From NCBI GenBank assembly GCA_014534425.1, contig JACVRN010000024.1:1-54311 (forward strand): 54,311 nt of DNA, given 5' to 3'. Made by a program: the position numbers and the translations under genes. The DNA comes from Pyrinomonadaceae bacterium (GTDB lineage: Bacteria; Acidobacteriota; Blastocatellia; Pyrinomonadales; Pyrinomonadaceae). The notes beneath the pieces were generated by a model. It saw nothing but the letters and a program-made list of their open reading frames with translations, made no database searches and had not been told where the DNA came from. Below are positions 20,946-48,742 of the stretch, piece by piece (positions within the stretch are counted from its first letter, which is position 1; every line of letters starts with the position of its first letter).

Positions 20946-21410
20946 TTACTTTCCGCTCTCCATAGGAAAGCCCGCGCTCTTCCAGGCGTTGGTTCCGCCC
21001 AGGAGCGCTGCCACATTGTCGAAGCCGGATTTTTGAAGCGTCTGCGCCGCACGGGCGCTGGAGTGTTCAGCCGGTCAAGAACAGTAGAGGACTATCAGCT
21101 TGTCCTTGGGAAGCTCGCCTGCACGCGCGCTCAACTCTTTTTCGGGAATGTCCAGCGCGCCCTTGATGTGCTCCGGCTTGTAAGCGTCCGTGCCGCGCAC
21201 GTCAACTATCACGGCCTTGTTCTGCTCCAGCATGTCGCGCAGTTCACCCACGGTCACACGCTTCACGTTATCCGGCGAAATATTGCGCGCCGTCCCCGGA
21301 GCATTAGCCGCGCCCGCACCGGCAGGCAGATTACTATTACGATTGCATCCCGCAATCATCGCCGCAGCCAGCAACAACAATGCTCCCGCCAGCAAACCCC
21401 AAAGACGCAT
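20946..21410 (-). CDS. Rhodanese-like lipoprotein with in-frame TGA: probable selenocysteine (copy A)
   Basis: ATG at 21410 follows GGAGG. Residues 1-22 form a lipoprotein signal (LLLLAAAMIAGC). A rhodanese domain follows: VTVGELRDMLEQNKAVIVDV, RGTDAYKPEHIKGALDIPE, DKLIVLYCS, then TGA (21075-21077, residue 112), then PAEHSSARAAQTLQ and AALLGGTNAWKSAGFP to TAA. The sequence after TGA is typical for the family and is needed to complete the fold. The TGA occupies the second Cys position of the Y-C-x-C active loop. Reading it as selenocysteine gives 154 aa. The product would face the periplasm and handle sulfur or selenium. It is downstream of copy B on the same strand. Confidence 0.85.
21044..21058 (-). 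promoter_or_regulatory. Candidate bacterial SECIS hairpin, rhodanese A
   Basis: On the minus strand GCGCC pairs with GGCGC around the loop CGTGC. The stem begins 16 nt after the TGA, so the loop begins 21 nt after it. A G lies in the first two loop bases. This fits published criteria for bacterial SECIS elements. Confidence 0.65.
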
Positions 21411-21426
21411 TCGACAAACCTCCAAA

Positions 21427-21503
21427 AACAGTTTTCAATTTTGAGTTTTCAGAAAAGAGCAACTTGCTTTTAACTGAAAACTGATTACTGAAAACTGCTC
21501 TTT
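21427..21503. repeat. Hairpin of GTTTTCAG/CTGAAAAC words between the rhodanese genes
   Basis: The left arm carries CAGTTTTCAATTTTGAG and GTTTTCAGAAAAGAGC. The right arm carries GCTCTTTACTTT and ACTGAAAACTGATTACTG in complementary order. The right end overlaps the stop codon of rhodanese B. Confidence 0.65.
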
Positions 21504-21981
21504 ACTTTTTCTCCACGGGGAATCCCGCTCGTTCCCAGGCTGCGTAGCCGCCGAGGAGTGCGGCTGCGTTTTCGAAACCCTTCTGCTTGATGTCCTGCAC
21601 CGCACGGGCGCTGGTGTGCTCGTTCGGTCAAGAACAGTAGGTGACTATGAGCTTGTCTTTAGGCAGTTCTTTGGTGCGATTTGCTATCTCGTTTTCAGGA
21701 ATCGAGACGGCACCCTTGATGTGACCTGCCTTGTAAGCATCCGTGCCGCGCACGTCGACGACTATGGCCGTGCCTTTGTCTAAAGCCGCGCGAAGCTCTT
21801 CGACCGTCACGCGCCGCACTCCGTCCGATGGAGTCTGCTGCGCCTGTGCCTGCTCCGCCGTTTCCATAGGCTGCGACGGCTGCGATGTGTTAGCGCTATC
21901 TCTTTTATTGCCGGAGCCGACTGCAAGTATAACCACCAGGGCGACGAGCAGCAGCGCCGATGCGAGGATTAGAGTACGCAT
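21502..21981 (-). CDS. Membrane-anchored rhodanese with in-frame TGA: probable selenocysteine (copy B)
   Basis: ATG at 21981 follows AAGGAGG. Residues 1-22 form an uncleaved or signal anchor (RTLILASALLLVALVVILAV), followed by a Ser/Gln-rich linker. The rhodanese domain runs VTVEELRAALDKGTAIVVDV, RGTDAYKAGHIKGAVSIPE, DKLIVTYCS, TGA (21628-21630, residue 118), PNEHTSARAVQDIKQKGFE, AALLGGYAAWERAGFP, TAA. The codon after YCS is TGA in exactly the position seen in copies A and C. Full read-through gives 159 aa. It shares a 227-bp divergent region with the sulfate-type transporter operon, so co-regulation by sulfur or selenium supply is plausible. Confidence 0.85.
21597..21611 (-). promoter_or_regulatory. 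Candidate bacterial SECIS hairpin, rhodanese B
   Basis: On the minus strand GCGCC pairs with GGTGC (one G-U pair) around the loop CGTGC, 16 nt after the TGA. The base change relative to copy A keeps pairing. Confidence 0.65.
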
Positions 21982-22208
21982 TCTTTTTAACCTCCTTCCA
22001 GCAATAGTTCTATCATGTTCTGTGCCCGCACCGCAAAAGCATAGGGTCAGTCGGCAGATTATTCTTTGGTTACAAGGACTTAATTTTCTCTTCAAAAACC
22101 TTCCCGAAACGGCAAAGGTGTGCTATAGACCGAGCTTAATTTTTAAAAATCCAGCAATAGTTTCAGGTCGGCGGGAGTAAGAGAGCGGAGGCATTGGAAG
22201 AGAAGCCT

Positions 22209-23255
22209 ATGTCGTGGCGAAGTTTACTCATTTTCGGGGTGCGCCTCTCGTGTGCAGCGCTCGTGCTCTCGGTTCTGCTCGTGGCGAACAGTTGTCTTCC
22301 GCAAGCGCCCACGACCGCAGGCGGGCGGAACCTGACCGTCTACGGCTTCTCCGTCATGAAGGAGTCTCTGGAGAAGGCAATCTTTCCGGCCTTCGCCGCC
22401 AAGTGGAAGCAGGAGCACGGCGAGGATGTAAAGTTCACTTCCAGCTTCGCGGGGTCTGAGACGGTCACGAACCAGATCATTCAGGGCGTCGAAGCGGACG
22501 TTGCCATTCTCTCCATAGAGCGCGACGTTGACCGCCTGAAGCCTGGCGGCTTTGTGACTTCAGACTGGCGTCAACTGCCCGCGCAGGGCATCGTCAACAA
22601 GACGCCCTTCGTCATACTGGTGCGGCGCGGCAATCCAAAAGGCATTCACGATTTTCCAGACCTCGCCAAGCCCGGAGTCCGTGTCATTCATCCAGACCCA
22701 GTATCTTCCGGCGGCGCGCAGTGGTCTATACTTGCAATCTACGGCTCAGAGCTAATCAAGTCCGAGAAGGAGACGGGCAAGCGCGACGAGGCACGCGCGC
22801 TCAACACTCTCCGAGCCATCTGGCGCAACGTCATAGCCACGCCCGGCTCCGCGCGCGAAGCCCGCACACAGTTCGAGACGGGCTATTCGGACGCGCTCAT
22901 CACCTACGAACTGGAAGCCATCCTGATGAAGCAGGCGCGTGCCGACGTTGAAATCGTAGTCCCGCAGGCGACCATCTTCAGCGAACACCCTACGGCCATC
23001 ATAGACCGCAACATCACTAATGAAGAGCGCCCCCTGGTCAACGCTTTTCTTCAATACCTCTGGACGGACGAAGCGCAGCGCGCCTTCGTCCAGTATCACT
23101 TCCGCTCCGTCACGAACGAAGAGCTAAACAAGGAGAACAAAGAGTTCGCCGAAATCAAGATGCCCTTCTACGTCAAAGACCTCGGCGGCTGGTCAAAAGC
23201 TTACCCTGAGATAATAGAGCGCATCTGGCGCGACCAGGTACAGAAAAGCAAGTGA
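22209..23255 (+). CDS. Sulfate-type ABC transporter substrate-binding lipoprotein
   Basis: About 348 aa from the ATG at 22209, preceded by GGAAGAG. A TTG at 22194 would add five residues. The signal ends in a lipobox-like LLVANSC. The sulfate/thiosulfate-binding family is indicated by LTVYGFSVMKESLEKAIFPAF, FTSSFAGSETVTNQIIQGVEADV, the ligand-loop HPDPVSSGGAQWSILAIYGS and YVKDLGGWSKAYPEI. It captures sulfate or a similar oxyanion outside the inner membrane. Such systems often also carry selenate. It starts a three-gene operon and diverges from the Sec-rhodanese genes. Confidence 0.9.
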   Translation: MSWRSLLIFGVRLSCAALVLSVLLVANSCLPQAPTTAGGRNLTVYGFSVMKESLEKAIFPAFAAKWKQEHGEDVKFTSSFAGSETVTNQIIQGVEADVAILSIERDVDRLKPGGFVTSDWRQLPAQGIVNKTPFVILVRRGNPKGIHDFPDLAKPGVRVIHPDPVSSGGAQWSILAIYGSELIKSEKETGKRDEARALNTLRAIWRNVIATPGSAREARTQFETGYSDALITYELEAILMKQARADVEIVVPQATIFSEHPTAIIDRNITNEERPLVNAFLQYLWTDEAQRAFVQYHFRSVTNEELNKENKEFAEIKMPFYVKDLGGWSKAYPEIIERIWRDQVQKSK

Positions 23256-23270
23256 ACTGAAGACTGAATT

Positions 23271-24104
23271 ATGAGTGCGACTGTCAGAGCGATGCGGCAT
23301 GTGAGGGGCTTTGATGTGGTGCGGCCCGTGAGTATTGGTGTGATGCTCGCAATCATGCTGCCGCTTGTGCTGTTACCTCTGGCTTCCATCTTCATCTTCG
23401 GGACGAACAAGGGATTGGGGAGTTTCTGGGCGGCTTTGACCGCGCCGGAGGCCATCTTTGCCTTAAAGCTCTCGATTGTGACCAGCTTTTGGGCGACCGT
23501 TTTCAACGTGCTGTTCGGTGTGCTGGGAGCTTACGTTCTCTCGCGTTACATGTTCTGGGGAAGGACGGCGCTGATTGTGACCATCTCGCTGCCGACGGCG
23601 ATTCCGACCGCCGTGGCGGGCTTCGCGCTGCTTCTGCTGTGGGGCAAGTACGGGATGATAGGCCAGTTTCTTTCCGAAGAGCACCAGATAATGTTCACGC
23701 CGTATGCCATCATCCTGGCAAACATCTTCGTCACGTTCCCGTTGGCCTTCGGCGTGCTGATGTCCGTCTTCGAGACCATGAGCCGTTCACTTGAAGAAGC
23801 CTCTGCGACAATAGGCGCGACACGCTGGCAGACCTTCTGGCATGTGACGCTGCCCTCGCTTCGCGGGGCCATAGTGACGGGCGCTCTTTTGACTTTCGCG
23901 CGGGCCATAGGTGAATTCGGCTCGACCATACTTGTCTCCGGCAACCTCGCCATGCGAACTCAGACCGCGCCGCTCTACATCTTCGCCAAGTTCAACGAGG
24001 GGCAGGTCGAGGCGGCCAACGCGGTCGCCATTGTGCTCGCGCTCTTTTCCTTCGTCATCTTCAGCATTCTCTTTTTCGCGCGCGACTGGCTGGACACGGA
24101 TTGA
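23271..24104 (+). CDS. Sulfate-type ABC transporter permease (single CysT/CysW-like subunit)
   Basis: A 277-aa protein with six membrane helices. The ATPase-docking loop reads EEASATIGATRWQTFWHVTLPS. The helices around LPTAIPTAVAGFALLLLWGK resemble CysT, while the tail FAKFNEGQVEAANAVAIVL resembles CysW. Classical sulfate importers need two permeases, CysT and CysW; only one lies between the binding protein and the ATPase here, so it probably forms a homodimer. It begins 16 bp after the binding-protein gene. Confidence 0.9.
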   Translation: MSATVRAMRHVRGFDVVRPVSIGVMLAIMLPLVLLPLASIFIFGTNKGLGSFWAALTAPEAIFALKLSIVTSFWATVFNVLFGVLGAYVLSRYMFWGRTALIVTISLPTAIPTAVAGFALLLLWGKYGMIGQFLSEEHQIMFTPYAIILANIFVTFPLAFGVLMSVFETMSRSLEEASATIGATRWQTFWHVTLPSLRGAIVTGALLTFARAIGEFGSTILVSGNLAMRTQTAPLYIFAKFNEGQVEAANAVAIVLALFSFVIFSILFFARDWLDTD

Positions 24105-24116
24105 GGTAAACGCTTT

Positions 24117-25373
24117 ATGCAGTCTGAGGAGTTCACGACGATATTCGGTAGCGAGGAGAACGGCGCGCAAGCTAGCGAGCGCGAAACGACTGCTGCCGCC
24201 AGCGTGCGTGGGCTGAGCAAGAGCTTTAAGGGCACGCGCGTTCTCGAAGACATTGATTTCGATGTCGCGGAAGGTGAATCGCTTGTGCTGCTTGGCTCGT
24301 CCGGGAGCGGCAAGACCACAATCCTTCGCATCATAGCCGGTCTCGAAGAGCCTGACACGGGGCGCGTCATTCTTCATGGCAAGGACGTTTCGGAGCTTCC
24401 CGCGCGCGAGCGCAACGTGGGCGTCATCTTTCAATCTTATGCTCTCTTCCCGCGCATGACGGTCGAAGCGAACATAGGCTACGGCCTTCGCATACGTGGC
24501 CGCCCGCGTAAAGAGATGCGGCGGGAAGTGGAGCGCTTAATAGAGCTTGTCGGCCTGGAAGAGCATCACAAGAAATATCCTTCGCAGCTTTCCGGCGGAC
24601 AGCAGCAGCGCGTGGCTATCGCGCGCACGCTCGCTTACAAGCCGCAGGTGCTTCTCTTCGACGAACCGTTCGGCGCGCTCGACGCGCAGATACGCGTGCG
24701 CTTGCGTAGAGAGATACACGCGCTCCTGAAGAAGGTGAACGTGCCAGCCATCTTCATCACGCACGACCAGGAGGAGGCGCTTGAGATGGGCGACCGCATT
24801 GCCGTCATCAACGCGGGGCGCATAGAGCAGATAGGCACGCCGCACGAGGTTTACAACAAGCCTGAGACGGAATTCGTCGCCACCTTCCTGGGCGCGGCCA
24901 ACCTGCTCCTTGGCGTTGTGAGCGGCCAGAACATCTCCGTCAACGCCATCCTTGTTCCTGCTGCGGAAGAGACGGCGCACTTTCAGGATGGGCAGGCCGT
25001 CAAGGTGGTCTTTCGACCGGAAGACGTTTGCCTGAGCCGCACGGGCGCTCTGCCCGAAGGCGCGCGTCGTCTGATGAACGGCATAGTCGAAGAGATAAGC
25101 TTCGTGGGCGCGTACGAGCGCTTGACTATCCGGCTTGACCTCACGGGGCGACAACCGGCAGTGAACGAGCCGCCGCTCTACAATGTCAACGCGGGCGCGA
25201 CCGACACGAAAACCGGCGTCCCCATCATCGTCACACGCCCCAAAGCTGAAGTCTCCGCCCTACCTTTCAATCCAGACGACCACGTAGCGGTCGGCCTCAC
25301 CTCTTTCCGAGTGCTTCCGAATTTCACGCTCGCATCCGAACGCGCAGGAAAAATCGTCGCCGCGCGGAAATAG
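24117..25373 (+). CDS. Sulfate-type ABC transporter ATP-binding protein (CysA-like)
   Basis: 418 aa. Walker A LGSSGSGKTT, Q-loop FQSYALFPRMTVEANI, signature LSGGQQQRVAIARTL, Walker B VLLFDEPFGALD and H-loop ITHDQEEALEMGDRI are present. A C-terminal TOBE-like regulatory domain follows at about 270-400 (VKVVFRPEDVCLS). The first 30 residues are an unusual acidic, Ala-rich extension. It is the last gene of the transporter operon, 13 bp after the permease. Confidence 0.93.
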   Translation: MQSEEFTTIFGSEENGAQASERETTAAASVRGLSKSFKGTRVLEDIDFDVAEGESLVLLGSSGSGKTTILRIIAGLEEPDTGRVILHGKDVSELPARERNVGVIFQSYALFPRMTVEANIGYGLRIRGRPRKEMRREVERLIELVGLEEHHKKYPSQLSGGQQQRVAIARTLAYKPQVLLFDEPFGALDAQIRVRLRREIHALLKKVNVPAIFITHDQEEALEMGDRIAVINAGRIEQIGTPHEVYNKPETEFVATFLGAANLLLGVVSGQNISVNAILVPAAEETAHFQDGQAVKVVFRPEDVCLSRTGALPEGARRLMNGIVEEISFVGAYERLTIRLDLTGRQPAVNEPPLYNVNAGATDTKTGVPIIVTRPKAEVSALPFNPDDHVAVGLTSFRVLPNFTLASERAGKIVAARK

Positions 25374-25442
25374 AAGACAATTCATCCCCTGCGAAAGAGA
25401 AGCAGTTTTGAGCGAGGCGCGATGTTGGGCTAAGATGCGCGC

Positions 25443-26978
25443 GTGAATCAACAATCGGAAGTTGCCAGCGAGTATCAGGCTAAATGGGCCAAGGTCATTG
25501 ACCAGACGCGCTGCATTGGCTGTCATGCCTGCACTACGGCCTGCAAATCTGAGAACCTTGTGCCCCTTGGCGTGACGCGCACCTACGTCAAGCACGTAGA
25601 CGTAGGCGTGTTTCCGCAGGCCCGGCGCGCTCATCAGGTGACGCGCTGTAATCAGTGCGCGCATGCGCCGTGCGTCGTGGCCTGTCCCACGACGGCCATG
25701 TTCAAGCGCGCAGACGGCATAGTCGATTTCGACAAGTCCATCTGCATAGGCTGTAAAGCCTGCATGGCCGCCTGTCCCTACGACGCAATCTTCATCAACC
25801 CTGAAGACCACTCTGCGGAGAAGTGCAACTTCTGCGCGCACAGGATTGACATGGGGCTTGAGCCTGCGTGCGTGGTGGTCTGCCCCGTCGAAGCGATTCT
25901 GGTCGGAGACATCAACGATGAGGCTTCAAAGGTTGCAAGCCTTGTCAACCGCGAGGCTGTCAACGTGCGCCGTCCTGAGAAAGAGACGCTGCCGAAACTG
26001 TTTTACAAGGGCGCGCATCAGGCCACGCTCGACCCACTGGCGGCGCGCCGCCCCACGGGCGGACTCTTCATGTGGAGCGAGCAGGCGACGGGAACAGACA
26101 CGGTAGTCTCAGGCAATCCTGATTTCAATAACACTTCGGCAGCCGCGCTTCTCTCTTACGACGTGGGCCACGCGATTCCCTGGGATTGGCGTGTGAGCCT
26201 TTACACCTGGACGAAGGGCATAGCTGCGGGCGCTTACCTGGTTCCGCTTCTGCTGGTCGTCTTCAGCTTGATGTCCGCGTCTAGTCCCATCTGGCTCTGG
26301 GTCGCGCCGGTTCTCTCAGGAATATTTCTGGCAATAACAGGCGGCCTGCTTATATGGGATTTAGAGCATCCCGCGCGCTTCCTGTTGATATTCACGCGCC
26401 CGCAGTGGCGAAGCTGGCTGGTCAAGGGGGCTTTTATCATAGCTGGCTACTCCGCGCTGCTCGCGCTGCATTTCATAGCGAGCCTTGTGGGCAGCCGTGA
26501 TGTTCAGAGCATACTTATCCCAATCGGATTGACGCTCGGCACGCTGACCGCCGTCTACACAGCTTATCTCTTCGCGCAGGCGAAGGCGCGCGACATGTGG
26601 CAGAACCCTCTGCTGCCGCCGCATCTCTTCGTGCAGGCGCTCCTTTTAGGCTCGGCTGCGCTCGCGCCTTTCGCCGCGTGGCTGGAGCCGCGCGCCCTGA
26701 CGGCGCTTTTCTGGACGCTTGGAATCACGAGCGCGATTCACCTGCTGCTGGTCTGGGGCGAGATAACACTCGCGCACCCGACCACTCACGCGCGCTTGGC
26801 TGTGTGGGAGATGACTGAAGGGCGATACCGCGCAGTCTTCTGGGTGGGCCTCTTGCTTTCGCTTGTGGGCCTCTTCGCGCCCATCTTCGGGCTGACCTCT
26901 GTTTCATTCGCGCTCGTGGGCCTGCTGCTCTACGAGCACGCGTACGTTCAGGCGGGCCAGTCGGTGCCGCTCGCATGA
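25443..26978 (+). CDS. Fused four-cluster ferredoxin-NrfD membrane subunit (CISM oxidoreductase)
   Basis: 511 aa starting at GTG. Residues 20-170 are a DmsB/NrfC-like iron-sulfur protein with four Cys clusters: CIGCHACTTAC, CNQCAHAPCVVAC, CIGCKACMAAC and CNFCAHRIDMGLEPACVVVC. Residues about 240-505 are an NrfD/PsrC-like membrane protein with around eight helices, which normally exchanges electrons with quinones. The two are usually separate polypeptides. No Tat or Sec signal precedes the FeS part, so it may face the cytoplasm. The catalytic molybdopterin subunit and its chaperone follow in the same direction. Confidence 0.93.
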   Translation: MNQQSEVASEYQAKWAKVIDQTRCIGCHACTTACKSENLVPLGVTRTYVKHVDVGVFPQARRAHQVTRCNQCAHAPCVVACPTTAMFKRADGIVDFDKSICIGCKACMAACPYDAIFINPEDHSAEKCNFCAHRIDMGLEPACVVVCPVEAILVGDINDEASKVASLVNREAVNVRRPEKETLPKLFYKGAHQATLDPLAARRPTGGLFMWSEQATGTDTVVSGNPDFNNTSAAALLSYDVGHAIPWDWRVSLYTWTKGIAAGAYLVPLLLVVFSLMSASSPIWLWVAPVLSGIFLAITGGLLIWDLEHPARFLLIFTRPQWRSWLVKGAFIIAGYSALLALHFIASLVGSRDVQSILIPIGLTLGTLTAVYTAYLFAQAKARDMWQNPLLPPHLFVQALLLGSAALAPFAAWLEPRALTALFWTLGITSAIHLLLVWGEITLAHPTTHARLAVWEMTEGRYRAVFWVGLLLSLVGLFAPIFGLTSVSFALVGLLLYEHAYVQAGQSVPLA

Positions 26979-26990
26979 AGGATTAGGAAG

Positions 26991-28050: not shown

Positions 28051-28059
28051 GAAGAAGCT

Positions 28060-30978
28060 ATGAGCGTTGGCAAATTAAATGAGCGTGTGAGCGCTCTGAG
28101 GCGCGAAGTGGAGGCGCGCGGCGAGACCTTTTATCCCGGGCCTAGCCGCATTCATCTGGCAATGTTCCCGCCGAAGGAGCGTTGGGATGATTGGGTGGAG
28201 TTGGAATCGCGCGCCTGGCCTGAGCGCGAGGAGCGCCGCTACATGCTCGTGCCCACGACCTGCTTTAACTGCGAGGCGGCGTGCGGTCTTCTGGCTTACG
28301 TCGATAAGGAGAGCCTTCAGGTGCGTAAGTTCGAGGGCAATCCTGAGCATCCAGGCTCGCGCGGTCGCAACTGCGCCAAAGGCCCAGCCACCTTGAATCA
28401 AATCACAGACCCCGACCGCATCCTTTATCCTCTGAAGCGCGCGGGCCGACGCGGGATGGGCAAATGGGTTCAGGTCTCCTGGGATGAAGTCCTGAACGAA
28501 CTTGCATCGCGCATCCGTAAGGCAATCCTGGAAGACCGTCGCGGCGAGATTATGTATCACGTGGGGCGTCCGGGCGAGGACGGCTTCACCGAGCGTATAC
28601 TCGCCGCGTGGGGCGTTGACGGCCACAACTCGCACACGAACATCTGCTCTTCCTCTTCGCGCGCAGGCTATCAATTCTGGATGGGGCTTGACCGTCCGAG
28701 TCCAGACCACGCGAATGCCGATGTCATCTTCCTCATCAGCGCGCACCTCGAATCGGGCCACTACTTCAACCCGCACGCGCAACGCATCATAGAAGCCAAG
28801 GCTCGCGGCGCACGGCTGATTGTCTTCGACACGCGTCTTTCCAACACAGCCACGCACGCGGACTACTGGGTCTCGCCTTATCCAGGCTCGGAAGCGGCCA
28901 TCGTTTTGGCAATCGCAAACTACCTGATTCAGAACGACCTCTATAACCGCGAGTTCGTGCGGCGATGGTGGAACTGGGAAGAGTACATGGCCGTGGAGCG
29001 GCCCGAAGCGGAGACGACGTTTGAAAACTTCGAGCTTGTTTTGAAGGAGCTTTACGCCAGCTACACTTTCGAGTTCGCCGCGCAGGAAGCGAAAGTGGAT
29101 GCGCGCGTGATTGAAGAGATTGCGCGCATAGTCTCGCAGGCGGGCACACGGTTTTCTAGCCACAACTGGAGAAGCGCTTCGTCCGGCAACCGTGGCGGGT
29201 GGAGCGTTGCCCGCGCGCTCTTCATGCTGAACGCGCTGCTTGGAGCGGTGGCGACCGAGGGCGGCGTCTTTCCGAACGCCTGGAACAAGTTTGTGCCGAA
29301 GCCCATCTACACGCCGCCTCACCCGCAGATGTGGAACGAGATGACGTGGCCGGGCGAGTATCCGCTCTCCATGAACGAGATGTCTTTCCTCTTGCCGCAG
29401 CTTTTGAAAGACGGGCGCGGGCGGATTGACACCTACTTCACGCGCGTCTACAACCCCGTGTGGACGAACCCAGACGGCTTCTCCTGGATTGAGGTTTTGA
29501 CGGATGAGCGGTTGGTCGGCTGTCACGTAGCCTTAACGCCCGTCTGGAACGAGACCTCTTACTTCGCGGACTACGTGCTGCCTATGGGCCTCGGCTCCGA
29601 GCGTCACGACATACATTCTTACGAGACGCACGACGCGCAGTGGCTAGGGTTTCGCCAGCCAGTGCTTCGCGCAGTGCGCGAGCGAATGGGCGAGCGCTTA
29701 AGGGACACGCGCGACGTGAACCCGGGCGAGGTCTGGGAAGAGAACGAGTTCTGGCTTGAGTTGACGTGGCGCATTGACCCCGATGGGAGTTTGGGAATAC
29801 GTCAGTACGCGGAATCGAAGGCGCGTCCGGGCGAGCGACTCAGCGTAGACGAGTACTACGCTTACATCTTCGAGAATTCTATCCCCGGATTGCCTGAGCG
29901 CGCGGCCAAGGAAAATCTGACGCCGCTTGAGTTCATGCGGCGCTACGGCGCGTTCGAGATTGAGAGGAAGATAGGCGCTCTCTACGAGCAGGCGGTTCCC
30001 GCCGAAGAGCTTGAAGACACGCGCACCGATCGCTTCGGCAGAGTTTATACGCGCGCCTCCAAACCGCCTTCGACCAACGTTGTGCCGGTGCCCACGATTG
30101 ACCCGGACTCGGAGGGGAGGCGCATGGTCGGCGTTGATGTTGACGGTCTAACCTTGCGTGGGTTCCCGACGCCAAGCGGAAGGCTTGAGTTTTATTCAAG
30201 GACTCTGGCGGACTGGGGCTGGCCCGAATGGAGCACCCCGGTTTACATCAAGAGCCACGTTCACCCCGACAACTTGGAAGAAGACCAGACGGTTTTAATC
30301 TCGACCTTCCGCCTGGCGATGCAGATTCACACTCGAAGCGCCAACGCGAAATGGTTGAATGAAATCGCGCACACCAACCCGCTCTGGCTTCATCCCACGC
30401 ATGCCGCGCGACTGGGTGTAGAGACGGGCGACCTGGTGCGTGTGGAAACCGAGACGGGCTACTTCGTGGTGCGCGCCTGGGTGACGGAAGGAATTAAACC
30501 GGGAATAGTCGCGTGCAGTCATCACATGGGACGCTGGAAATTGTCTGACGAAGGCGAGCGACAGATGATGGCGACAGTCCGGTTGAATCACGAAGGCCAC
30601 GAGTGGGGCATCAGGCGAGAGCGCGGCGTAGAGCCGTACAGGTCGGATGATGCTGACACTTCGCGCATCTGGTGGACGGACGTGGGCGTGCATCAAAATC
30701 TGACTTTTCCTGTGCATCCCGACCCGATCTCCGGCATGCACTGCTGGCATCAGGCCGTGCGCGTGCGCCGAGCCGAAGCGGGCGACTCCTACGGCGACAT
30801 ACATGTTGATACAAAGAAGTCGCGCGAGGCTTACCAGCGCTGGCTAGCCATGACGCGGCCCGCCGACAGGTTTTCACCTGACGGCACCCGCCGCCCCTAC
30901 TGGCTCCTGCGCCCTCTCAAGCCCGCAAGGGAATTTTACAAGCTCCCCGCAGAGGCCGAGCCTGTAGGCGTGGAGTAG
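28060..30978 (+). CDS. Molybdopterin-dependent oxidoreductase catalytic subunit (DMSO-reductase family)
   Basis: 972 aa. An N-terminal [4Fe-4S] site is CFNCEAAC at 68-75 with a fourth Cys near 105 (GRNCAKG). The Mo/W-bis-MGD domain follows, with the likely metal ligand Cys196 in HTNICSSSSRAGYQF. The C-terminal cofactor-binding domain includes NPLWLHPTHAARLGVETGDLVRVETETG and VACSHHMGRW. The substrate is not clear from sequence; arsenate, polysulfide, tetrathionate and formate-type enzymes share this plan. No twin-arginine signal is present, so the enzyme is probably cytoplasmic. It works with the upstream FeS-NrfD fusion and the downstream chaperone. Confidence 0.93.
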   Translation: MSVGKLNERVSALRREVEARGETFYPGPSRIHLAMFPPKERWDDWVELESRAWPEREERRYMLVPTTCFNCEAACGLLAYVDKESLQVRKFEGNPEHPGSRGRNCAKGPATLNQITDPDRILYPLKRAGRRGMGKWVQVSWDEVLNELASRIRKAILEDRRGEIMYHVGRPGEDGFTERILAAWGVDGHNSHTNICSSSSRAGYQFWMGLDRPSPDHANADVIFLISAHLESGHYFNPHAQRIIEAKARGARLIVFDTRLSNTATHADYWVSPYPGSEAAIVLAIANYLIQNDLYNREFVRRWWNWEEYMAVERPEAETTFENFELVLKELYASYTFEFAAQEAKVDARVIEEIARIVSQAGTRFSSHNWRSASSGNRGGWSVARALFMLNALLGAVATEGGVFPNAWNKFVPKPIYTPPHPQMWNEMTWPGEYPLSMNEMSFLLPQLLKDGRGRIDTYFTRVYNPVWTNPDGFSWIEVLTDERLVGCHVALTPVWNETSYFADYVLPMGLGSERHDIHSYETHDAQWLGFRQPVLRAVRERMGERLRDTRDVNPGEVWEENEFWLELTWRIDPDGSLGIRQYAESKARPGERLSVDEYYAYIFENSIPGLPERAAKENLTPLEFMRRYGAFEIERKIGALYEQAVPAEELEDTRTDRFGRVYTRASKPPSTNVVPVPTIDPDSEGRRMVGVDVDGLTLRGFPTPSGRLEFYSRTLADWGWPEWSTPVYIKSHVHPDNLEEDQTVLISTFRLAMQIHTRSANAKWLNEIAHTNPLWLHPTHAARLGVETGDLVRVETETGYFVVRAWVTEGIKPGIVACSHHMGRWKLSDEGERQMMATVRLNHEGHEWGIRRERGVEPYRSDDADTSRIWWTDVGVHQNLTFPVHPDPISGMHCWHQAVRVRRAEAGDSYGDIHVDTKKSREAYQRWLAMTRPADRFSPDGTRRPYWLLRPLKPAREFYKLPAEAEPVGVE

Positions 30979-30988
30979 ACACTCATTC

Positions 30989-38140: not shown

Positions 38141-38148
38141 TAGAACAG

Positions 38149-38218: not shown

Positions 38219-38221
38219 GCT

Positions 38222-39308: not shown

Positions 39309-39376
39309 AGGGTTAATGAAATAGCCTCTTCGGCGCTTGACCGAGGGCACCGTGCGAAGGCAAGATTCATGATGTT

Positions 39377-41116: not shown

Positions 41117-41159
41117 AGTAAGACAAGAGTTCAAATCACACGCTCAGAGGGAATCCGCA

Positions 41160-42119: not shown

Positions 42120-42185
42120 TTAATTTTCATTTACTCGCCATCCTTGAAGTTGTTGGTATATGCTCTCGCTTCGGCAAACAGATAG

Positions 42186-43589
42186 ATGACTCATCCTTTA
42201 CTCTTATCATTGTTTGACGAGACGGAGCGACGCCCGCTCTCGGTCTCCGAGTTGACCGCGCAGGTACGCGGGGCACTTGAGACGCGCTTCTCTAACGTCT
42301 GGGTCGAAGGTGAAATCTCGAACTTCAAGGCGGCGCAGTCCGGCCACTGGTACTTCACCATCAAGGACGAATGGTCGCAGCTTCGCTCCACCTGCTTTCG
42401 CGGCGTCAACGGTCGCATACGCTTTCGCCCTTCGGACGGCCTACAGGTTCGTGCGCGCGGGCGGCTGACCGTTTACGAGCCGCGCGGCGAATACGAGTTG
42501 ATGGTCGAAGCCCTCGACCCCGTGGGCGCTGGTGCCTTGCGTGTAGCCTTCGAGCAGATGCGCGAGCGCCTTTCCGGTGAAGGTCTCTTTGACGAAGAAC
42601 TGAAACGCTCCCTTCCGCTCTTTCCGCAACGCGTAGGCATCGTCACATCCCTTAACGGCGCTGCGCTCAGGGACATCCTGCATGTCCTCTCGCGCCGCAC
42701 GCGAACGGTTCACGTACTGGTTGCGCCTACGCGCGTGCAGGGCGAAGGCGCAGGCGAAGAGATTGTGCGCGCCATCTCCCGCCTGAACGATTATCAGGAT
42801 GAGTGCATAAGGTGCGGGCGCGTGAGCGAGTTGATTGATGTCATCATAGTCGGTCGCGGCGGAGGCTCTGCCGAAGACCTCTGGGCTTTTAATGAAGAGC
42901 AGGTGGCGCGTGCCATACGCGCGTCCGCGATTCCCGTCATCTCTGCCGTGGGCCACGAGACGGACGTGACGATAGCGGATTTCGCGGCAGACCTGCGAGC
43001 CGCCACGCCTTCGGCTGCCGCAGAGCTTGTGGCCGCCCGCGAGGACGAGATAGAAGCACTGATAATGAATCTGACGCGAGACATGCTGCGCGCCTTGCGC
43101 TTTCAACTGGTGAATGCCAGAGCGCGCGTGCAGGAAGCTGCCATGTCGCACGGCTTCGATGACGTGCAGGCAAGGCTTCGTGACAGCGTTCAGAGAACAA
43201 GCGAGGCGCGGTACAGGCTTGAGACACTCGCGCGACGCTATCTTGAAAGAGCAAGACGGCGCACCGGTTCTTCCATCGCGCGTCTCACGCCCGTTCGCCT
43301 GAGCGCTCACCTTTCGGACGCGCGCATGCGGCTCCACAAGGCTATCGCACGCCGCGATGCTCTGATAGATTCTCGTCTTGAAGAGGCTAGGGCGCGTTTG
43401 GGCGTGCTGGCCGCGTCGCTCGACGCGCTCTCGCCGCTCAGTGTGCTCAAGCGAGGCTATTCGATTGCACAGGACGAGCGTGGGCGGCTTCTTCGTGATG
43501 CTCGCGCGGTCAACGTGGGCGAGACCTTGCGCTTGCAGTTGGCCGGAGGCTCGCTGCGTTGCAGAGTGTTGGAGAGAAAGGACGTTTGA
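42186..43589 (+). CDS. xseA: Exodeoxyribonuclease VII large subunit
   Basis: 467 aa. An N-terminal OB-fold (about 18-115: VWVEGEISNFKAAQSGHWYF) precedes the catalytic domain, with FPQRVGIVTSLNGAALRDIL, VIIVGRGGGSAEDLWAFNEE and AVGHETDVTIADFAADLRAATPSAAAELV. A long coiled coil comes next, and the C-terminus has LSPLSVLKRGYSIAQDERGR. The XseA-XseB complex degrades single-stranded DNA. Its TGA overlaps the ATG of the next gene. Confidence 0.96.
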   Translation: MTHPLLLSLFDETERRPLSVSELTAQVRGALETRFSNVWVEGEISNFKAAQSGHWYFTIKDEWSQLRSTCFRGVNGRIRFRPSDGLQVRARGRLTVYEPRGEYELMVEALDPVGAGALRVAFEQMRERLSGEGLFDEELKRSLPLFPQRVGIVTSLNGAALRDILHVLSRRTRTVHVLVAPTRVQGEGAGEEIVRAISRLNDYQDECIRCGRVSELIDVIIVGRGGGSAEDLWAFNEEQVARAIRASAIPVISAVGHETDVTIADFAADLRAATPSAAAELVAAREDEIEALIMNLTRDMLRALRFQLVNARARVQEAAMSHGFDDVQARLRDSVQRTSEARYRLETLARRYLERARRRTGSSIARLTPVRLSAHLSDARMRLHKAIARRDALIDSRLEEARARLGVLAASLDALSPLSVLKRGYSIAQDERGRLLRDARAVNVGETLRLQLAGGSLRCRVLERKDV

Positions 43590-44437
43590 TGGCTGCACCC
43601 GAAGGGGGCGAACGCCCTAAAAGAAATCGCATCATCATTAACCTTGAGCGCGCCAGAGAGGCCGCGCACATTCCTCCGCTCCCAAGGCGCGGCAGTCGCG
43701 GCGCTCGCATTCTCGCTCTCATTGGCATAGTCTTCGTCGTCATCATTCTGGCCCTCGCGCTCGGCATCTTTCTCTGGTGGCAGAACTATAAAACGAAGCC
43801 CGCCTACTCGCTCGCTCTGCTGGTTGATGCCGTGCAGACGAACGATGAAGCGGCCTTTAACGAACTTGTTGATACGGACAAGGTGGTCGAGAACTTTGTG
43901 CCGCAGGTGACTGAGAAGGCAATCGGGAGATACGCTGCGGCGCTGACCACTCCCATACGCAAGCAGGTAGAGGCGCTCGTCCCAAAGCTTCTGCCGAGAG
44001 TGAAAGCGCAGGTGCGCGAGGAAGTGACGAAGAAGATAAAGGAGCTTTCAGCCCGCGCCGAAGGCAGGCCCTTCATTCTGATAGCGCTCGGCATGCCCTA
44101 CGTGGTGGACGTGACGGAGGAGGGCGATACTGCGCGCGTGATGGCGAATTTGAATGACCGGCAGGTTGAGTTGACTATGGCCCGAAACGAAAGTCGCTGG
44201 AAGATTGTGGGCGTAAAAGACGACGTGATGGCGACGCAGCTTGTAGACCGCATCATGAAAGACCTCCCGGCCATAGGCTCGGAGCTTGATAAGATACGAA
44301 AGAATCTGCCGAAGGAGGTTGAAAAGAATATACCCAAGAACATGAACGTGGACGATATAAGAAAGAACCTGCCGAACATCCCCGGCATCACGGACAACGC
44401 CAACGAAAACAGAAACGGCAACAGCAACGAGCGGTAG
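43589..44437 (+). CDS. Uncharacterised single-pass membrane protein between xseA and xseB
   Basis: About 282 aa, start ATG overlapping the xseA stop (TGATG), so translation is coupled. Residues about 48-68 form one membrane helix (ILALIGIVFVVIILALALGI). The extracytoplasmic part has an alpha/beta domain with YSLALLVDAVQTNDEAAFNE, a helical stretch, and a beta half (DTARVMANLNDRQVELTMAR, WKIVGVKDDV), resembling DUF2939-like folds. It ends in an Asn/Gly-rich tail. I do not recognise its function. Confidence 0.8.
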   Translation: MAAPEGGERPKRNRIIINLERAREAAHIPPLPRRGSRGARILALIGIVFVVIILALALGIFLWWQNYKTKPAYSLALLVDAVQTNDEAAFNELVDTDKVVENFVPQVTEKAIGRYAAALTTPIRKQVEALVPKLLPRVKAQVREEVTKKIKELSARAEGRPFILIALGMPYVVDVTEEGDTARVMANLNDRQVELTMARNESRWKIVGVKDDVMATQLVDRIMKDLPAIGSELDKIRKNLPKEVEKNIPKNMNVDDIRKNLPNIPGITDNANENRNGNSNER

Positions 44438-44462
44438 TTCTCCTGAGCAGGAGAGGTCATAA

Positions 44463-44765
44463 ATGAAGAAAAGGGAAGCGCAGGCGAAGAGTTTCGAGGG
44501 GTCTCTGACGGCGCTGGAAAAAATAGTCCGCGAGCTTGAGCACGGCGACCTTCCGCTTGAGCGCAGCCTGGAATTGTTTGAGGAGGGCGTGCGGCTGTCG
44601 CGCGAGTGCCAGGAACGCTTGAACGCTGCGGAGCGCCGCATAGAGCTTCTGCTTCACGACAACGAGGGCCAGCCCACCATCTCTGCCTTCGACGAAGAGA
44701 CGGCTGCGAGCTTGCGTCTTGATGAGACCGATGACGAGGCGGACGATGATGAGAGCGTCTTCTGA
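44463..44765 (+). CDS. xseB: Exodeoxyribonuclease VII small subunit
   Basis: 100 aa. The XseB helical hairpin is visible: SFEGSLTALEKIVRELEHGD, LPLERSLELFEEGVRLSREC, QERLNAAERRIELLL. An acidic tail (DETDDEADDDESVF) follows. Several small subunits wrap the XseA coiled coil. The ispA start lies inside its last codons, a common xseB-ispA arrangement. Confidence 0.95.
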   Translation: MKKREAQAKSFEGSLTALEKIVRELEHGDLPLERSLELFEEGVRLSRECQERLNAAERRIELLLHDNEGQPTISAFDEETAASLRLDETDDEADDDESVF

Positions 44766-45672
44766 AGCCGTAAAAAACACGGAGAGCGCGCAGGGCTTCT
44801 TTGCGGAAGCTCGCGCGTTGATTGACGCGCGACTGGACGCTCTGCTCCCGAAGGATGCGACCGAGCCTCAGAGCTTGCACGCGGCGATTCGCTGGAGCGT
44901 GTTTGCCGGAGGCAAGCGCTTTCGTCCGTCGCTCATGCTCGCTGCAGGCCGCGCGTTCGGCGCGGGTGATGATGCGCTTCTGAACACGGCCTGCGCGCTT
45001 GAGATGATTCACACCTACTCGCTCATTCACGACGACCTGCCCGCTATGGATGACGATGATTTGAGGCGCGGGCGGCCTACGTGTCATGTGCGTTTCGGTG
45101 AAGCTGTGGCAATCCTTGCGGGCGACGTTCTGCAAACGCTGGCCTTTCAAGTCATCTCGGAAGATGAAAAGCTTGCGCCGGATGTGCGCGTGCGCCTCAT
45201 AGCCGAACTGGCGCGTGCCGCAGGAACTCCTTACGGCATGGTCGCGGGACAGGCTTATGATTTAATCGCAGCATCGCACGAGTCTTCGCCCGAAGAGCTT
45301 GAGCGCATACATCTGCACAAGACGGGCGCGCTGATACAGGCTGCGGCGCGTTCGGGAGCAATCATCGCGGGCGCGAAAGCGGATGATACGGAGCTTCAGG
45401 CTTTGACTCGCTACGCCGCGCAGTTGGGGCTGCTGTTTCAGATAACGGACGACCTGCTGGACGTGACGGCGACGGCAGAGGATTTGGGCAAGACGCCGGG
45501 CAAGGATGAGCGCGCAAGCAAGGCCACGTATCCGGCGCTCTATGGTCTGGAAGAGGCGCGCGGGCTTGCTCAGGCGGCATACTCGGAGGCGTGCGCCGCG
45601 CTCGAAGAGATTTCCAGGCCGACAGAGCTTCTCAAATCAATCGCCCTGTTCATTCTTGAAAGACGTGCTTGA
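44749..45672 (+). CDS. ispA: Polyprenyl (farnesyl) diphosphate synthase
   Basis: About 307 aa from the ATG at 44749 (MRASSEAVKNTES), overlapping xseB; an upstream ATG at 44719 is less likely. The isoprenoid synthase motifs are GGKRFRPSLML, the first Asp-rich motif DDLPAMDDDDLRRG and the second FQITDDLLDVT. It builds C15 (or longer) prenyl diphosphates from IPP and DMAPP in the cytoplasm. The dxs gene that often follows is absent; a repeat and a secreted protease come next. Confidence 0.94.
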   Translation: MRASSEAVKNTESAQGFFAEARALIDARLDALLPKDATEPQSLHAAIRWSVFAGGKRFRPSLMLAAGRAFGAGDDALLNTACALEMIHTYSLIHDDLPAMDDDDLRRGRPTCHVRFGEAVAILAGDVLQTLAFQVISEDEKLAPDVRVRLIAELARAAGTPYGMVAGQAYDLIAASHESSPEELERIHLHKTGALIQAAARSGAIIAGAKADDTELQALTRYAAQLGLLFQITDDLLDVTATAEDLGKTPGKDERASKATYPALYGLEEARGLAQAAYSEACAALEEISRPTELLKSIALFILERRA

Positions 45673-45681
45673 AGCAAAGGC

Positions 45682-45755
45682 TGTAGGGGCAGGGACAAGT
45701 CCTCTGCTCGCTCTATGTTTACAAAACAACGGGCAGGGACAAGCCCTGCCCCTAC
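45682..45755. repeat. Two partial copies of the GTAGGGGCAGGG repeat, in hairpin orientation
   Basis: A GTAGGGGCAGGGACAAGTCC copy at 45683-45702 is followed after about 30 bp by GGGCAGGGACAAGCCCTGCC at 45731-45750, which forms an 8-bp hairpin. The outer ends (TGTAGGGGC and GCCCCTAC) also pair. Same family as 584-623. Confidence 0.8.
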
Positions 45756-45790
45756 TTAAACCATCTACATTTTCAGTAGGAGAAAACTTT

Positions 45791-46735
45791 ATGAGACGAA
45801 AGCTTGTGGCGCTTGCGACGCTCTGTGCGCTCGGCCTGGCGCTTATTCTCACCCGAACAACTCTTAATCAAGTGCGCGCGGACAATGCTCTCAATGCGAG
45901 CGCGCCTACGGCTACGGCGAATGCGCCGGGCAAGGGGCGAGACCGTTGCGGGACGCGCGACCTGGACGAGACTACCGCCGCTTCTTATCAGAACTCTGTG
46001 AATGCTTTTACGAAGAGTCGCGGGCAGGGTCGCGGCCCAGGCACCGTGACCATTCCAGTCTTTTTTCACGTCGTCAATAAAGGCGCTGGCATTGAGAACG
46101 GCGACGTGCCTCTGAGCATGCTACAGGCGCAGGTGAAGGTTTTGAACCAGTCTTATAGTGGCGCGACGGGCGGCGCGAATACTGCTTTCAGGTTCGTGCT
46201 GGCTGGCGTTGACCGCACTACGAACGTAGATTGGTTCAACGCAGGGCCGGACACGGACGCAGAGCGCGAGATGAAGACGGCGCTTCACACGGGCGATGCG
46301 AAAGTCTTGAACTTCTACACGAACAACGCTGGCGGCTTCCTGCTGGGGTGGGCGACGTTCCCCTTCTGGTACGCGGGCGACCCACTTATGGACGGAGTCG
46401 TTTGTCTCTACTCGTCCCTGCCGGGCGGCAACTGCTGCGACGGAGTTCCCTACAACGAGGGCGACACGGGCACGCACGAGGTAGGTCACTGGCTAGGTCT
46501 TTATCACACCTTCCAGGGCGGCTGCGCTGCTATCTATAACGACTTCGTGGACGACACTCCTTTGGAGCGCTCGCCCGCTTTCGGCTGTCCTGCCGGGCGC
46601 GATACCTGCCCGAAGCCTGGGCTTGACCCGATTGAGAATTTCATGGATTACTCGAACGACCCCTGCATGCACGTGTTCACAGCAGGGCAGTCTACGCGCG
46701 CCGACGCCTACTCGGCTTTCTATAGAGGTTTGTAG
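45791..46735 (+). CDS. Secreted M43 (cytophagalysin/pappalysin-like) metzincin protease 1
   Basis: About 314 aa from the ATG at 45791. The signal peptide is RRKLVALATLCALGLALILT. The catalytic motif is HEVGHWLGLYH (HExxHxxGxxH) and the Met-turn is ENFMDYSND. Cysteines are arranged as in M43B proteases (FQGGC, FGCPAGRDTCP, NDPCMHVF). The N-terminal part (VFFHVVNKGAGIENGDVPLS) matches the family pro/catalytic entry. The product would be an extracellular or periplasmic endopeptidase. A paralogue follows at 47110. Confidence 0.94.
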   Translation: MRRKLVALATLCALGLALILTRTTLNQVRADNALNASAPTATANAPGKGRDRCGTRDLDETTAASYQNSVNAFTKSRGQGRGPGTVTIPVFFHVVNKGAGIENGDVPLSMLQAQVKVLNQSYSGATGGANTAFRFVLAGVDRTTNVDWFNAGPDTDAEREMKTALHTGDAKVLNFYTNNAGGFLLGWATFPFWYAGDPLMDGVVCLYSSLPGGNCCDGVPYNEGDTGTHEVGHWLGLYHTFQGGCAAIYNDFVDDTPLERSPAFGCPAGRDTCPKPGLDPIENFMDYSNDPCMHVFTAGQSTRADAYSAFYRGL

Positions 46736-47109
46736 TTCTCAAGCTTCAAAAAGGCCGTCAAAAGAGCGGGAGGCCGCAGCGTTTCTCAAGGGATGCTGCG
46801 CCTCTTGCGCTTTTGATGGTTGACAACTGCGTGAGAATCCTGTAATAACTTTCGACTGTTGACATTCACAAACAAGTGGTTTCAACCTCTTGCCCTCTCA
46901 CATAGCTAATAGATTAGCAGGCCCAGGTGATAGCTTTTATTTCGCGCTATTAATCTACCCCGTTGCCAGGCAATGGGGGGCGTAATTTCTTTGATTGCAT
47001 TCCGGCATCATTACCCGATGCGTGTAGACGTGAGAGCACCTAGCCCTCACAAACATCAAGCCACGACTCTCTATCCCCTGATAGAGAGCGATTGAACCGG
47101 AGGAGTTGA
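46736..47109. other. 374-base leader between two M43 protease genes, with small hairpins
   Basis: No reading frame of note. CCCCGTTGCC/GGCAATGGGG at 46958-46978, GCATC/GATGC at 47005-47021 and a perfect CTCTCTATC/GATAGAGAG at 47067-47088 lie in series. The last is just upstream of the GGAGGAG ribosome site, so it could tune translation. I do not recognise a riboswitch class. Confidence 0.45.
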
Positions 47110-48144
47110 ATGAAATTTAAGTTAGGAGCACTGCTGGCCTTAATCACACTCGGCGTTGCGCTGACGCTGTCGAGCCTTCCCACCACTAACACTCGCGCTC
47201 AGGGTCGTCAGTACGGCCCCGGCGATCACCCCGGCCTTCAGGCGGACGGAACTTTCAGAGCGCCGGACGGCACCCTCTTCGATTCTCAACGAGCGTTCGT
47301 GGAGAGCGGTCGTCGCTGCGCCTCAAAGAATGCTGATGATCAGGATATAGAACAGATTGAAAGGGATGTCAAAAACGCACGCCGCGCCGGTGGCGGTAGC
47401 GGTAACTTGGGCGGAACCGATGGCGCGCGTCTCTACGCCAACGGACAGATTACCATCAATGTCTATTTTCACGTCGTTTATAGAGCAGACGGCACGGGCA
47501 ATATTCCTGATTCCAGATTGGACGCTCAGATTGCAGCAATGAACGAGCATTATTCCGGCCTGGATACGCCCGTCTACAGAGGCGCTGCCGCTAACACCTC
47601 TTTTCGTTTCGTGAGGGCGGGCGTCACACGCACACAGAATGATACCTGGTACGCAGCCGGGCCTGGGTCTGCGGCGCAGACACAGATGAAGAACGCGCTT
47701 CATCAGGGTACGGCGGACGACCTTAACTTCTACACCAATAGCGGCGGCGGCTACCTCGGCTGGGCCACCTTCCCCAACGAGTACGCTGGCGCTCCCTTGC
47801 AGGACGGCATAGTTTGCTACTGGGCATCACTGCCCGGCTCTAACTACGTCCCCTACAACGAGGGCGACACGGGCACGCACGAGGCTGGACACTGGCTCGG
47901 CCTTTATCACACCTTCCAGGGCGGATGCCTTGGCAGTGGCGACGGCGTTGCAGATACTCCCGCCGAGCGCGCGGCAACCTATGGCTGCCCGACCAAGGCT
48001 CAGGACACCTGCAAGCAGAACGCCGGTCTTGACCCGTACGAGAACTTCATGGACTACACGGATGACCCGTGCATGTACAAGTTCTCGCTCGGACAATCCG
48101 ACCGCATGGACACTATGTGGTCAACCTACCGCTTCGGCAAATAA
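47110..48144 (+). CDS. Secreted M43 metzincin protease 2
   Basis: 344 aa, ATG after GGAGGAG. The signal peptide is KLGALLALITLGVALTLSSL. The zinc motif is HEAGHWLGLYHTFQGGC and the Met-turn is ENFMDYTDD. The region VPYNEGDTGTHE is shared with protease 1, and the two differ mostly in the N-terminal 110 residues, where this copy has a longer basic/acidic linker (IEQIERDVKNARRAGG). It is therefore a recent tandem duplicate of the same extracellular protease type. Confidence 0.94.
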   Translation: MKFKLGALLALITLGVALTLSSLPTTNTRAQGRQYGPGDHPGLQADGTFRAPDGTLFDSQRAFVESGRRCASKNADDQDIEQIERDVKNARRAGGGSGNLGGTDGARLYANGQITINVYFHVVYRADGTGNIPDSRLDAQIAAMNEHYSGLDTPVYRGAAANTSFRFVRAGVTRTQNDTWYAAGPGSAAQTQMKNALHQGTADDLNFYTNSGGGYLGWATFPNEYAGAPLQDGIVCYWASLPGSNYVPYNEGDTGTHEAGHWLGLYHTFQGGCLGSGDGVADTPAERAATYGCPTKAQDTCKQNAGLDPYENFMDYTDDPCMYKFSLGQSDRMDTMWSTYRFGK

Positions 48145-48179
48145 CAAGGGCCGAAGTCCTTGATGCCTTGAGTGAAGAT

Positions 48180-48223
48180 GAAAGGGGCGCTTCTCCGCTA
48201 CAGAAGGGGACAGCGCCCCTTTC
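48180..48223 (+). terminator. Hairpin after M43 protease 2
   Basis: GAAAGGGGCGCT (48180-48191) pairs exactly with AGCGCCCCTTTC (48212-48223). The trailing bases are TTCCGTG, so it lacks a proper T-run and could be a weak terminator or an mRNA-stabilising hairpin. Confidence 0.55.
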
Positions 48224-48256
48224 CGTGATTGAGAAAGAGAGTCGGTCTAAAAAGCT

Positions 48257-48742
48257 ATGCGAGCCGCAATCCTTCTGATGCTGACAATCGCTTTCACTAT
48301 TTTGAGCGGCCCCGCCTCATGCCGTACGGGTAACTCCAGCAGAAGAGATGCTAAAGACGCCCGCACCGCGTCACAGCCCACAGAAGATGCTAACGCGCCA
48401 ACTGAAGGCGACCCCTTCGCGGCCATCCCGCGCGTGAAGGTGGAGGAACTCGTCAGAGCGCTCGAAGAAGGCAGGGCCGTGGTGGTTGATATTCGCGCGG
48501 CGGAGGCTTATCAGGAAGAGCACATCAAAGGAGCGGTTTCGATTCCACTGGAAGAGATACGCGAGCGCGGGGCCAGAGAGTTGCCTACGGATAAACTGAT
48601 AGTAACCTACTGCGCTTGACCGGAAGAGCATTCGAGCGCCCGTGCGGCGTCATTCTTAAGATACAAGGGATTCAAACAAACCGCCGCGCTGCTTGGCGGT
48701 CTCGATGCATGGAAGGCCGCAGGACTTCCCGTAGAGCGTTAG
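48257..48742 (+). CDS. Secreted rhodanese with in-frame TGA: probable selenocysteine (copy C)
   Basis: ATG at 48257. A signal or lipoprotein-like N-terminus (LLMLTIAFTILSGPASC) is followed by a linker. The rhodanese domain reads VKVEELVRALEEGRAVVVDI, RAAEAYQEEHIKGAVSIPLE, DKLIVTYCA, TGA (48617-48619, residue 121), PEEHSSARAASFLRYKGFK, AALLGGLDAWKAAGLPVER, TAG. The TGA sits exactly where copies A and B have it. Read-through gives 161 aa. This copy is about 27 kb away and on the opposite strand, so three independent mutations at one codon are very unlikely. Confidence 0.85.
48636..48650 (+). promoter_or_regulatory. Candidate bacterial SECIS hairpin, rhodanese C
   Basis: GCGCC pairs with GGCGT (one G-U pair) around the loop CGTGC, 16 nt after the TGA. 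Loop and spacing match copies A and B. Confidence 0.65.

Follow-up and report, generated by a model that had tools for sequence, protein, structure and literature searches.

Three rhodanese genes on a contig from a member of the Pyrinomonadaceae (Acidobacteriota) each carry a single in-frame TGA two residues past the Cys of the active loop, and comparative evidence indicates that this codon is almost certainly decoded as selenocysteine (Sec). The stretch analysed, referred to below as the window, is the whole 54,311-nucleotide (nt) contig JACVRN010000024.1 of a 5.4 Mb assembly (GCA_014534425.1) that is 89.8% complete. That the three genes are genuine selenoproteins is held with very high confidence. 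The joint explanation that accounts best for the observations, and which is regarded as probable, is that these selenoproteins are putatively exported rhodaneses in which a Cys/Sec redox pair would act on sulfane sulfur. They form a new, well-supported subfamily of an already known kind, the rhodanese selenoproteins with a Cys-x-Sec (CxU) motif.

In-frame TGA codons and the selenocysteine system

The active loops read YCSUPAEHSSARA, YCSUPNEHTSARA and YCAUPEEHSSARA in paralogues 1, 2 and 3, respectively (Table 1). In each, about 40 residues containing LLGG..AW..AG.P follow the loop and lead to a normal stop. Frames called with translation table 11 stop exactly at the TGA (21075..21425 and 21628..22095 on the minus strand, 48257..48619 on the plus strand). 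Read through TGA, the frames of the pair cover 20946-21605 and 21502-22095 on the minus strand and that of paralogue 3 covers 48257-48742 on the plus strand; for paralogue 1 the extended frame to 21605 needs a second TGA, whereas the ATG start at 21410 does not. All three read-through products pass the Pfam rhodanese model PF00581 (70.4, 68.8 and 64.1 bits against a gathering score of 22.2). Paralogues 2 and 3 are 55% and 53% identical to paralogue 1, and therefore are not recent copies. A sequence-only reading of the window had pointed to TGA at the identical codon of three rhodanese genes and had interpreted it as probable Sec; the observation is confirmed by these frames and scores, and the interpretation is supported by the genomic evidence that follows.

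The Sec machinery, whose presence that reading had left to be checked, is found in the same genome. SelA scores 552 bits (cut-off 268), SelB 388 bits (cut-off 242) and SelD 360 bits (cut-off 125), with SelD carrying a TGA of its own at SCAGU, and a tRNA-Sec with anticodon TCA is encoded as well.

The Sec column was then followed in relatives. At the level of the order 119 genomes were searched, every one labelled as the same family; 118 of them match at E <= 1e-12. DNA was read at 30 loci of this search, 100 further regions (one of them a filler) and additional loci. Among 138 distinct sites the column holds TGA at 123, a Cys codon at 12 (11 of these in a C-x-C loop) and another codon at three, namely Ser, Met and Glu in odd or remote rows. 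TGA is thus present at 120 sites in other genomes beyond the three of the window, a recurrence at one column far beyond chance. Counted by genome, 103 of the 119 have at least one TGA copy, six have a Cys copy only and ten have neither among the sites read. A follow-up search of these ten gave a match containing a single TGA for G053, G087 and G114, weaker matches only, with no TGA or with extra stops, in G019, G020, G047, G080, G091 and G103, and no match in G014. Cys homologues also exist in Nitrospirota, Pseudomonadota and Verrucomicrobiota, where the contig pattern scan spans the Sec position, reads Sec as Cys and could recover Cys forms only. The census agrees with the earlier proposal that TGA takes the place of the second Cys of the loop.

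The protein past the TGA had also been described as conserved, against decay, and this is upheld by substitution rates. The median ratio of nonsynonymous to synonymous rates (dN/dS) is 0.20 after the TGA and 0.19 before it, over 139 between-genome pairs that are non-independent and may include paralogues. Purifying selection is indicated for the part past the TGA.

The hairpin behind the UGA

SelB and tRNA-Sec would decode the UGA as Sec, guided by a small hairpin past the UGA that resembles a selenocysteine insertion sequence (SECIS). With the T of TGA numbered 0, nt 19-23 pair with nt 29-33 around a loop of nt 24-28, so that the stem starts 16 nt and the G-U of the loop 21 nt after the UGA. 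In all 123 TGA copies, C-G occupies pairs 22-30 and 23-29. The outer pairs vary: 20-32 is C-G in 71 copies and T-A in 35, and 19-33 is G-C in 74, G-T in 16 and C-G in 9. Across 118 distinct rows 93.6% of cells have the five stem pairs formed; sliding the 3′ side lowers this to 24-55%. In 500 shuffles pairing averaged 87.6% and reached 89.5% at most, and two-sided stem changes, of which 41 were observed, averaged 12 with a maximum of 20; the shuffles preserve column make-up and not relatedness, and the result is not to be read as a probability.

Codon choice points the same way. The loop codon is CGT in 50 copies, GGT in 45, AGT in 19 and NGG in nine (NGT in 114), so that the encoded residue may be Arg, Gly or Ser, yet the loop G is always kept and the U nearly always. 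In the rest of these genes CGT makes up 10% of Arg codons, GGT 21% of Gly codons and AGT 8% of Ser codons. The preceding stem codon, where it encodes Ala, is GCC in 121 of 121 cases, compared with 32% of Ala codons elsewhere in the genes. This pattern of substitution indicates that the hairpin is kept at the RNA level even as the amino acid changes.

A bacterial SECIS model in print describes an apical loop of 3-9 nt whose first positions include G[G/U], an upper stem of at least 4 base pairs (bp), a distance of 16-37 nt from the UGA and a minimum free energy (MFE) no higher than -7.5 kcal/mol (PMC13188914). Of the 123 copies, 107 show the 4 bp stem together with a G[G/U] loop, and 113 reach an MFE of -7.5 kcal/mol or lower over 45 nt; all three window copies have a 5 bp stem. 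The predicted hairpin fits this model (PMC13188914). Only one of ten Cys copies retains the motif. In the window, with both strands counted, the motif fits three of 1846 TGA triplets, and these are the three rhodanese TGAs; the motif was built from a set that includes these copies. Rfam models at gathering scores gave no match in the window. The hairpin lies within the predicted 45-nt MFE fold in two of the three window copies, an alternative fold winning in the copy at 21502. Plain folding energy counts against the interpretation, as the 45 nt following the TGA give a weak MFE z-score, with a mean of -0.94 in the 123 Sec copies and -0.10 in the ten Cys copies. The SECIS argument rests instead on the position-specific pair and codon tests.

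Table 1. Positions in the window of the rhodanese genes, their Sec codons and hairpins, and adjacent genes
Feature	Position	Strand	Remarks
Selenorhodanese paralogue 1	20946..21410	-	154 amino acids (aa) with Sec; lipobox-like IAGC near N-terminus
Selenorhodanese paralogue 2	21502..21981	-	159 aa with Sec; N-terminal hydrophobic helix
Selenorhodanese paralogue 3	48257..48742	+	161 aa with Sec; N-terminal hydrophobic segment
Sec codon TGA, paralogue 1	21075..21077	-	
Sec codon TGA, paralogue 2	21628..21630	-	
Sec codon TGA, paralogue 3	48617..48619	+	
SECIS-like hairpin, paralogue 1	21044..21058	-	GCGCC-CGTGC-GGCGC; 5 bp stem, loop CGUGC
SECIS-like hairpin, paralogue 2	21597..21611	-	GCGCC-CGTGC-GGTGC
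SECIS-like hairpin, paralogue 3	48636..48650	+	GCGCC-CGTGC-GGCGT
Sulfate-type ATP-binding cassette (ABC) transporter (substrate-binding protein, permease, ATPase)	22194..25373	+	adjoins the pair; TIGR00971 above cut-off
4Fe-4S / NrfD (polysulphide-reductase type) protein	25443..26978	+	
Molybdopterin oxidoreductase	28060..30978	+	best NCBIfam model thiosulfate reductase PhsA, far below cut-off

Selenocysteine, cysteine and the decoding system across genomes

Relationships among the copies were examined in a tree of 162 rows and 117 columns, built by a quick search that leaves many forks open. It comprises 148 of 149 collected homologues and 14 chosen from 79 Cys rows; the Cys row of G063 (L111) was dropped as too short. 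A branch with a Shimodaira-Hasegawa-like approximate likelihood ratio (SH-aLRT) support of 99 sets apart 110 rows (101 Sec, 9 Cys) that include all three window copies, and on its other side lie 52 rows of small forms, DedA fusions and exchanger fusions. Among the genomes read, three Sec copies in the window's clade are found only in G000, and six others have two. A Sec copy belonging to this distinct clade, whose members are mostly predicted to be N-anchored, occurs in 93 of the 119 genomes, and a TGA copy of some kind in 103 of the 109 whose column was read.

SelA is above cut-off in 104 of the 119 genomes, and in 97 of the 103 with a TGA copy. All six genomes with Cys copies only (G052, G063, G065, G066, G068 and G079) lack SelA above cut-off and SelB at E <= 1e-60, and five of them also lack tRNA-Sec at E <= 1e-7. 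Within the window's clade, 90 of the 93 genomes with a Sec copy have SelA, whereas five of the seven with Cys copies only do not; in the two exceptions, G101 and G095, SelA is present alongside TGA copies that fall in other groups. Among the Sec rows of the tree, the Cys copies of G052 and G079, of G066 and G068, and of G065 stand at separate places. Taken together, the distribution indicates that Cys replaces Sec where the Sec system is lost.

Several observations weigh against so tidy a correspondence. tRNA-Sec persists in G052, although this Cys genome has neither SelA nor SelB. A TGA copy without detectable SelA occurs in G013, G031, G086, G089, G094 and G102; five of these assemblies are 62-82% complete, and tRNA-Sec or SelB was found in all but G089, which has neither. 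The sixth, G102, is 96% complete in 820 contigs and has two TGA rhodaneses and tRNA-Sec, yet gave no SelA or SelB; either assembly gaps across its many contigs or a recent loss could account for this. A test of linked Sec and SelA loss on independent branches had four pairs to work with, too few in that fewer than six cannot reach 0.05; SelA changed in the same way in 2.8 of the four on average and never in the opposite way.

Both forms meet in genome G101, inferred to be Pyrinomonas methylaliphatogenes K22, which belongs to the same family-level group as the source organism of the window. K22 is a cultured obligate aerobe (PMC4644332). Since a cultured strain holds Sec and Cys forms in one genome, their function is directly testable.

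Predicted role and known relatives

AlphaFold2 predicts with confidence a rhodanese domain (predicted local distance difference test, pLDDT, 94-98) that lies behind a low-confidence linker and an N-terminal helix. In 137 rows shorter than 260 aa, taken from all groups, a hydropathy scan finds a hydrophobic segment ahead of the domain in 118 and a regular expression finds a lipobox-like motif in 86; among the window copies the lipobox is confined to 20946-21410. By this simple scan for signals and anchors, the products are predicted to be exported, probably as N-anchored proteins or lipoproteins. Four residues, C116, U/C118, E121 and S124 in the numbering of 21502-21981, show no variation across 38 aligned sequences.

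These features suggest how the proteins may work. The Cys at the rhodanese catalytic position (residue 116) is kept, with Sec at +2. This Cys would accept a sulfur atom to form a persulfide, or become oxidised, and Sec would resolve it through a selenenyl-sulfide bond that is re-reduced by a thiol partner. The outcome would be reduction of sulfane sulfur or disulfides in the periplasm, and not cyanide detoxification. The sulfur-related neighbours and the recurring neighbourhood genes lead us to infer an oxidoreductase of the periplasm whose Cys/Sec pair would act on sulfane sulfur or disulfides.

Gene context was compared over 41 neighbourhoods, comprising 13 kb of the window and 40 further stretches (two of them from one genome, two with Cys genomes), with one member of each neighbour type identified by profile. 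The NrfD/Fe-S protein is present in eight, the molybdenum (Mo) enzyme in six (that of the window itself lying outside the slice) and a metallo-beta-lactamase/rhodanese protein in three. It counts against the assignment that no single gene accompanies the rhodanese throughout the 41; as no neighbour is general, function is weakly constrained. In three neighbourhoods, L295, L296 and L319, all of genus g29, the selenorhodanese and SelB are no more than about 3 kb apart. An open reading frame of 333 aa at 18480-19481 (+) in the window, without a Pfam match, is near the selenorhodanese in five. Short intergenic inverted repeats occur at 19478-19606 and 20864-20942 in the window, with arms of 36 and 33 nt that are 85-89% complementary; the latter is composed of units such as ATGGTGA.

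The main rival to a sulfur redox role is peroxide defence, in which the same selenoproteins would be thiol oxidoreductases for peroxide or disulfide defence, partnered with a PrxQ-type peroxiredoxin. Eight neighbourhoods, two of them from Cys genomes (G063 and G066), have a thioredoxin-dependent PrxQ/Bcp peroxiredoxin immediately upstream of the rhodanese and on its strand, and a review states that almost all selenoproteins of known function serve antioxidant defence. This association is limited, however, to genus g22, and the neighbours in the window are a sulfate-type transporter, NrfD and Mo enzymes. Peroxide defence is considered less likely than the sulfur redox role.

A second alternative keeps the selenoproteins and makes them classical thiosulfate:acceptor sulfurtransferases, Sec merely tuning the loop. 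The PF00581 fold, the retained Cys and the adjoining sulfate-type ABC transporter are compatible with it. Classical thiosulfate sulfurtransferases have a Cys loop with a cationic residue, of the C-x4-R type, whereas no Arg is found among the invariant loop residues here. Comparison with solved folds adds to the difference. BH2092 (3nhv) and the rhodanese domain of 3tp9 are among the closest, at 37% and 32% identity, and neither is reported as a selenoprotein in this comparison. The beta-lactamase/rhodanese protein 3tp9 has an ordinary loop, YCRTGGRS, whose Cys aligns with the Cys two before Sec; the window loop is two residues longer and lacks its Arg. With the invariant Cys-x-Sec/Cys, Glu and Ser suggesting redox chemistry instead, the sulfurtransferase role is considered rather improbable.

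That the TGA is a real stop, the genes being in decay or encoding truncated half-domains, can be given hardly any weight. Standard-code frames do end at the TGA, and TGA is also an ordinary stop here, ending the sulfate-binding protein (23253-23255) and the permease (24102-24104), 1.3 and 2.1 kb from the pair. Against it stand the prevalence of TGA in the column census, the low dN/dS after the TGA, the full Sec machinery and the SECIS constraint. Pseudogenes, code reassignment and sequencing error were all rejected. Reassignment of TGA in the lineage to a different amino acid (Trp or Gly, for example), or a sequencing error, is the most remote of all, as it has nothing in its favour beyond the in-frame TGA itself, the other codons of the column include none for Trp or Gly, neighbouring genes end normally in TGA and TGA copies recur in 103 assemblies.

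Beyond the redox role preferred here, a broader view is offered tentatively: Sec rhodaneses may be a core envelope component throughout an acidobacterial family that includes aerobes, periplasmic persulfide chemistry being one reason why Sec is kept. As part of this same tentative view, the window genes may belong to a wider acidobacterial set of selenorhodaneses that includes two membrane fusions, DedA/VTT-rhodanese and cation/proton-exchanger-rhodanese. If true, repeated loss of Sec with replacement by Cys would amount to a natural experiment. The family offers a clean case of RNA-level SECIS conservation amid amino acid change, and of Cys taking over from Sec upon loss of the system. Fusions of a cation/proton exchanger (PF00999) with a C-terminal rhodanese and an in-frame TGA at CxU are found at L165:154-1845 (+) and L172:268-1857 (+), and L143-L146 group with them in the tree. 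DedA-type (VTT domain)-rhodanese proteins with an in-frame TGA at CxU occur in other acidobacterial families (L170:1391-2347 (-), L178:1480-2370 (-) and L182:895-1851 (+)), and L183 looks similar; the VTT domain was tested in three Sec relatives only.

The novelty implied by the sequence-only reading was overstated, as CxU rhodanese selenoproteins already figure in reviews and in NCBIfam. They are listed as 'Rhodanese-like domain-containing protein form 3, CxU' (PMC13188914) and as 'COG0607 form 2, CxU' (PMC9312934). For Acidobacteria, three selenoprotein families with four proteins were in print in 2006 (PMC1794560), and Occallatibacter riparius is credited with three selenoproteins (PMC12013277). 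Among the titles and opening lines of abstracts listed by literature searches none dealt with this group, and an earlier description may exist. What the present analysis contributes is the subfamily itself, the finding that it is widespread in the family, and the connection between losing the Sec system and replacing Sec by Cys.

The closest described model is NF041203, rhodanese_LYCAU ('rhodanese-related (seleno)protein'), which is the best NCBIfam model for all three proteins and shares the CxU motif and the single rhodanese domain. With Sec scored as Cys, the window copies reach 106.7, 100.8 and 82.7 bits, below its cut-off of 115. Of 396 sampled genomes of the phylum, 133 match it at E <= 1e-15 and one passes the cut-off, copy L117 of G101 (125.2 bits), which lies outside the 110-row clade of the window. 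Because so many match and only one passes, annotation by model name would miss most members of the family, and proteins would presumably be cut at the TGA where it is not recoded. The CxC rhodaneses of Nitrospirota, Pseudomonadota, Verrucomicrobiota and Acidobacteriota have the same loop with Cys for Sec, mostly as YC.CPNE..S or YC.CPSE..S. They contain no Sec, and the majority of the 79 rows reach greater lengths (about 270-340 aa) and have an N-terminal part that is DedA-like by length and look; Cys forms of such length are common in Nitrospira. TsoB (NF045694), a rhodanese/DsbD fusion-like selenoprotein, is weakly similar over the rhodanese part, the window copies scoring 32-37 against a cut-off of 805, and differs by its listing in having two Sec residues and a DsbD-like part (PMC13188914).

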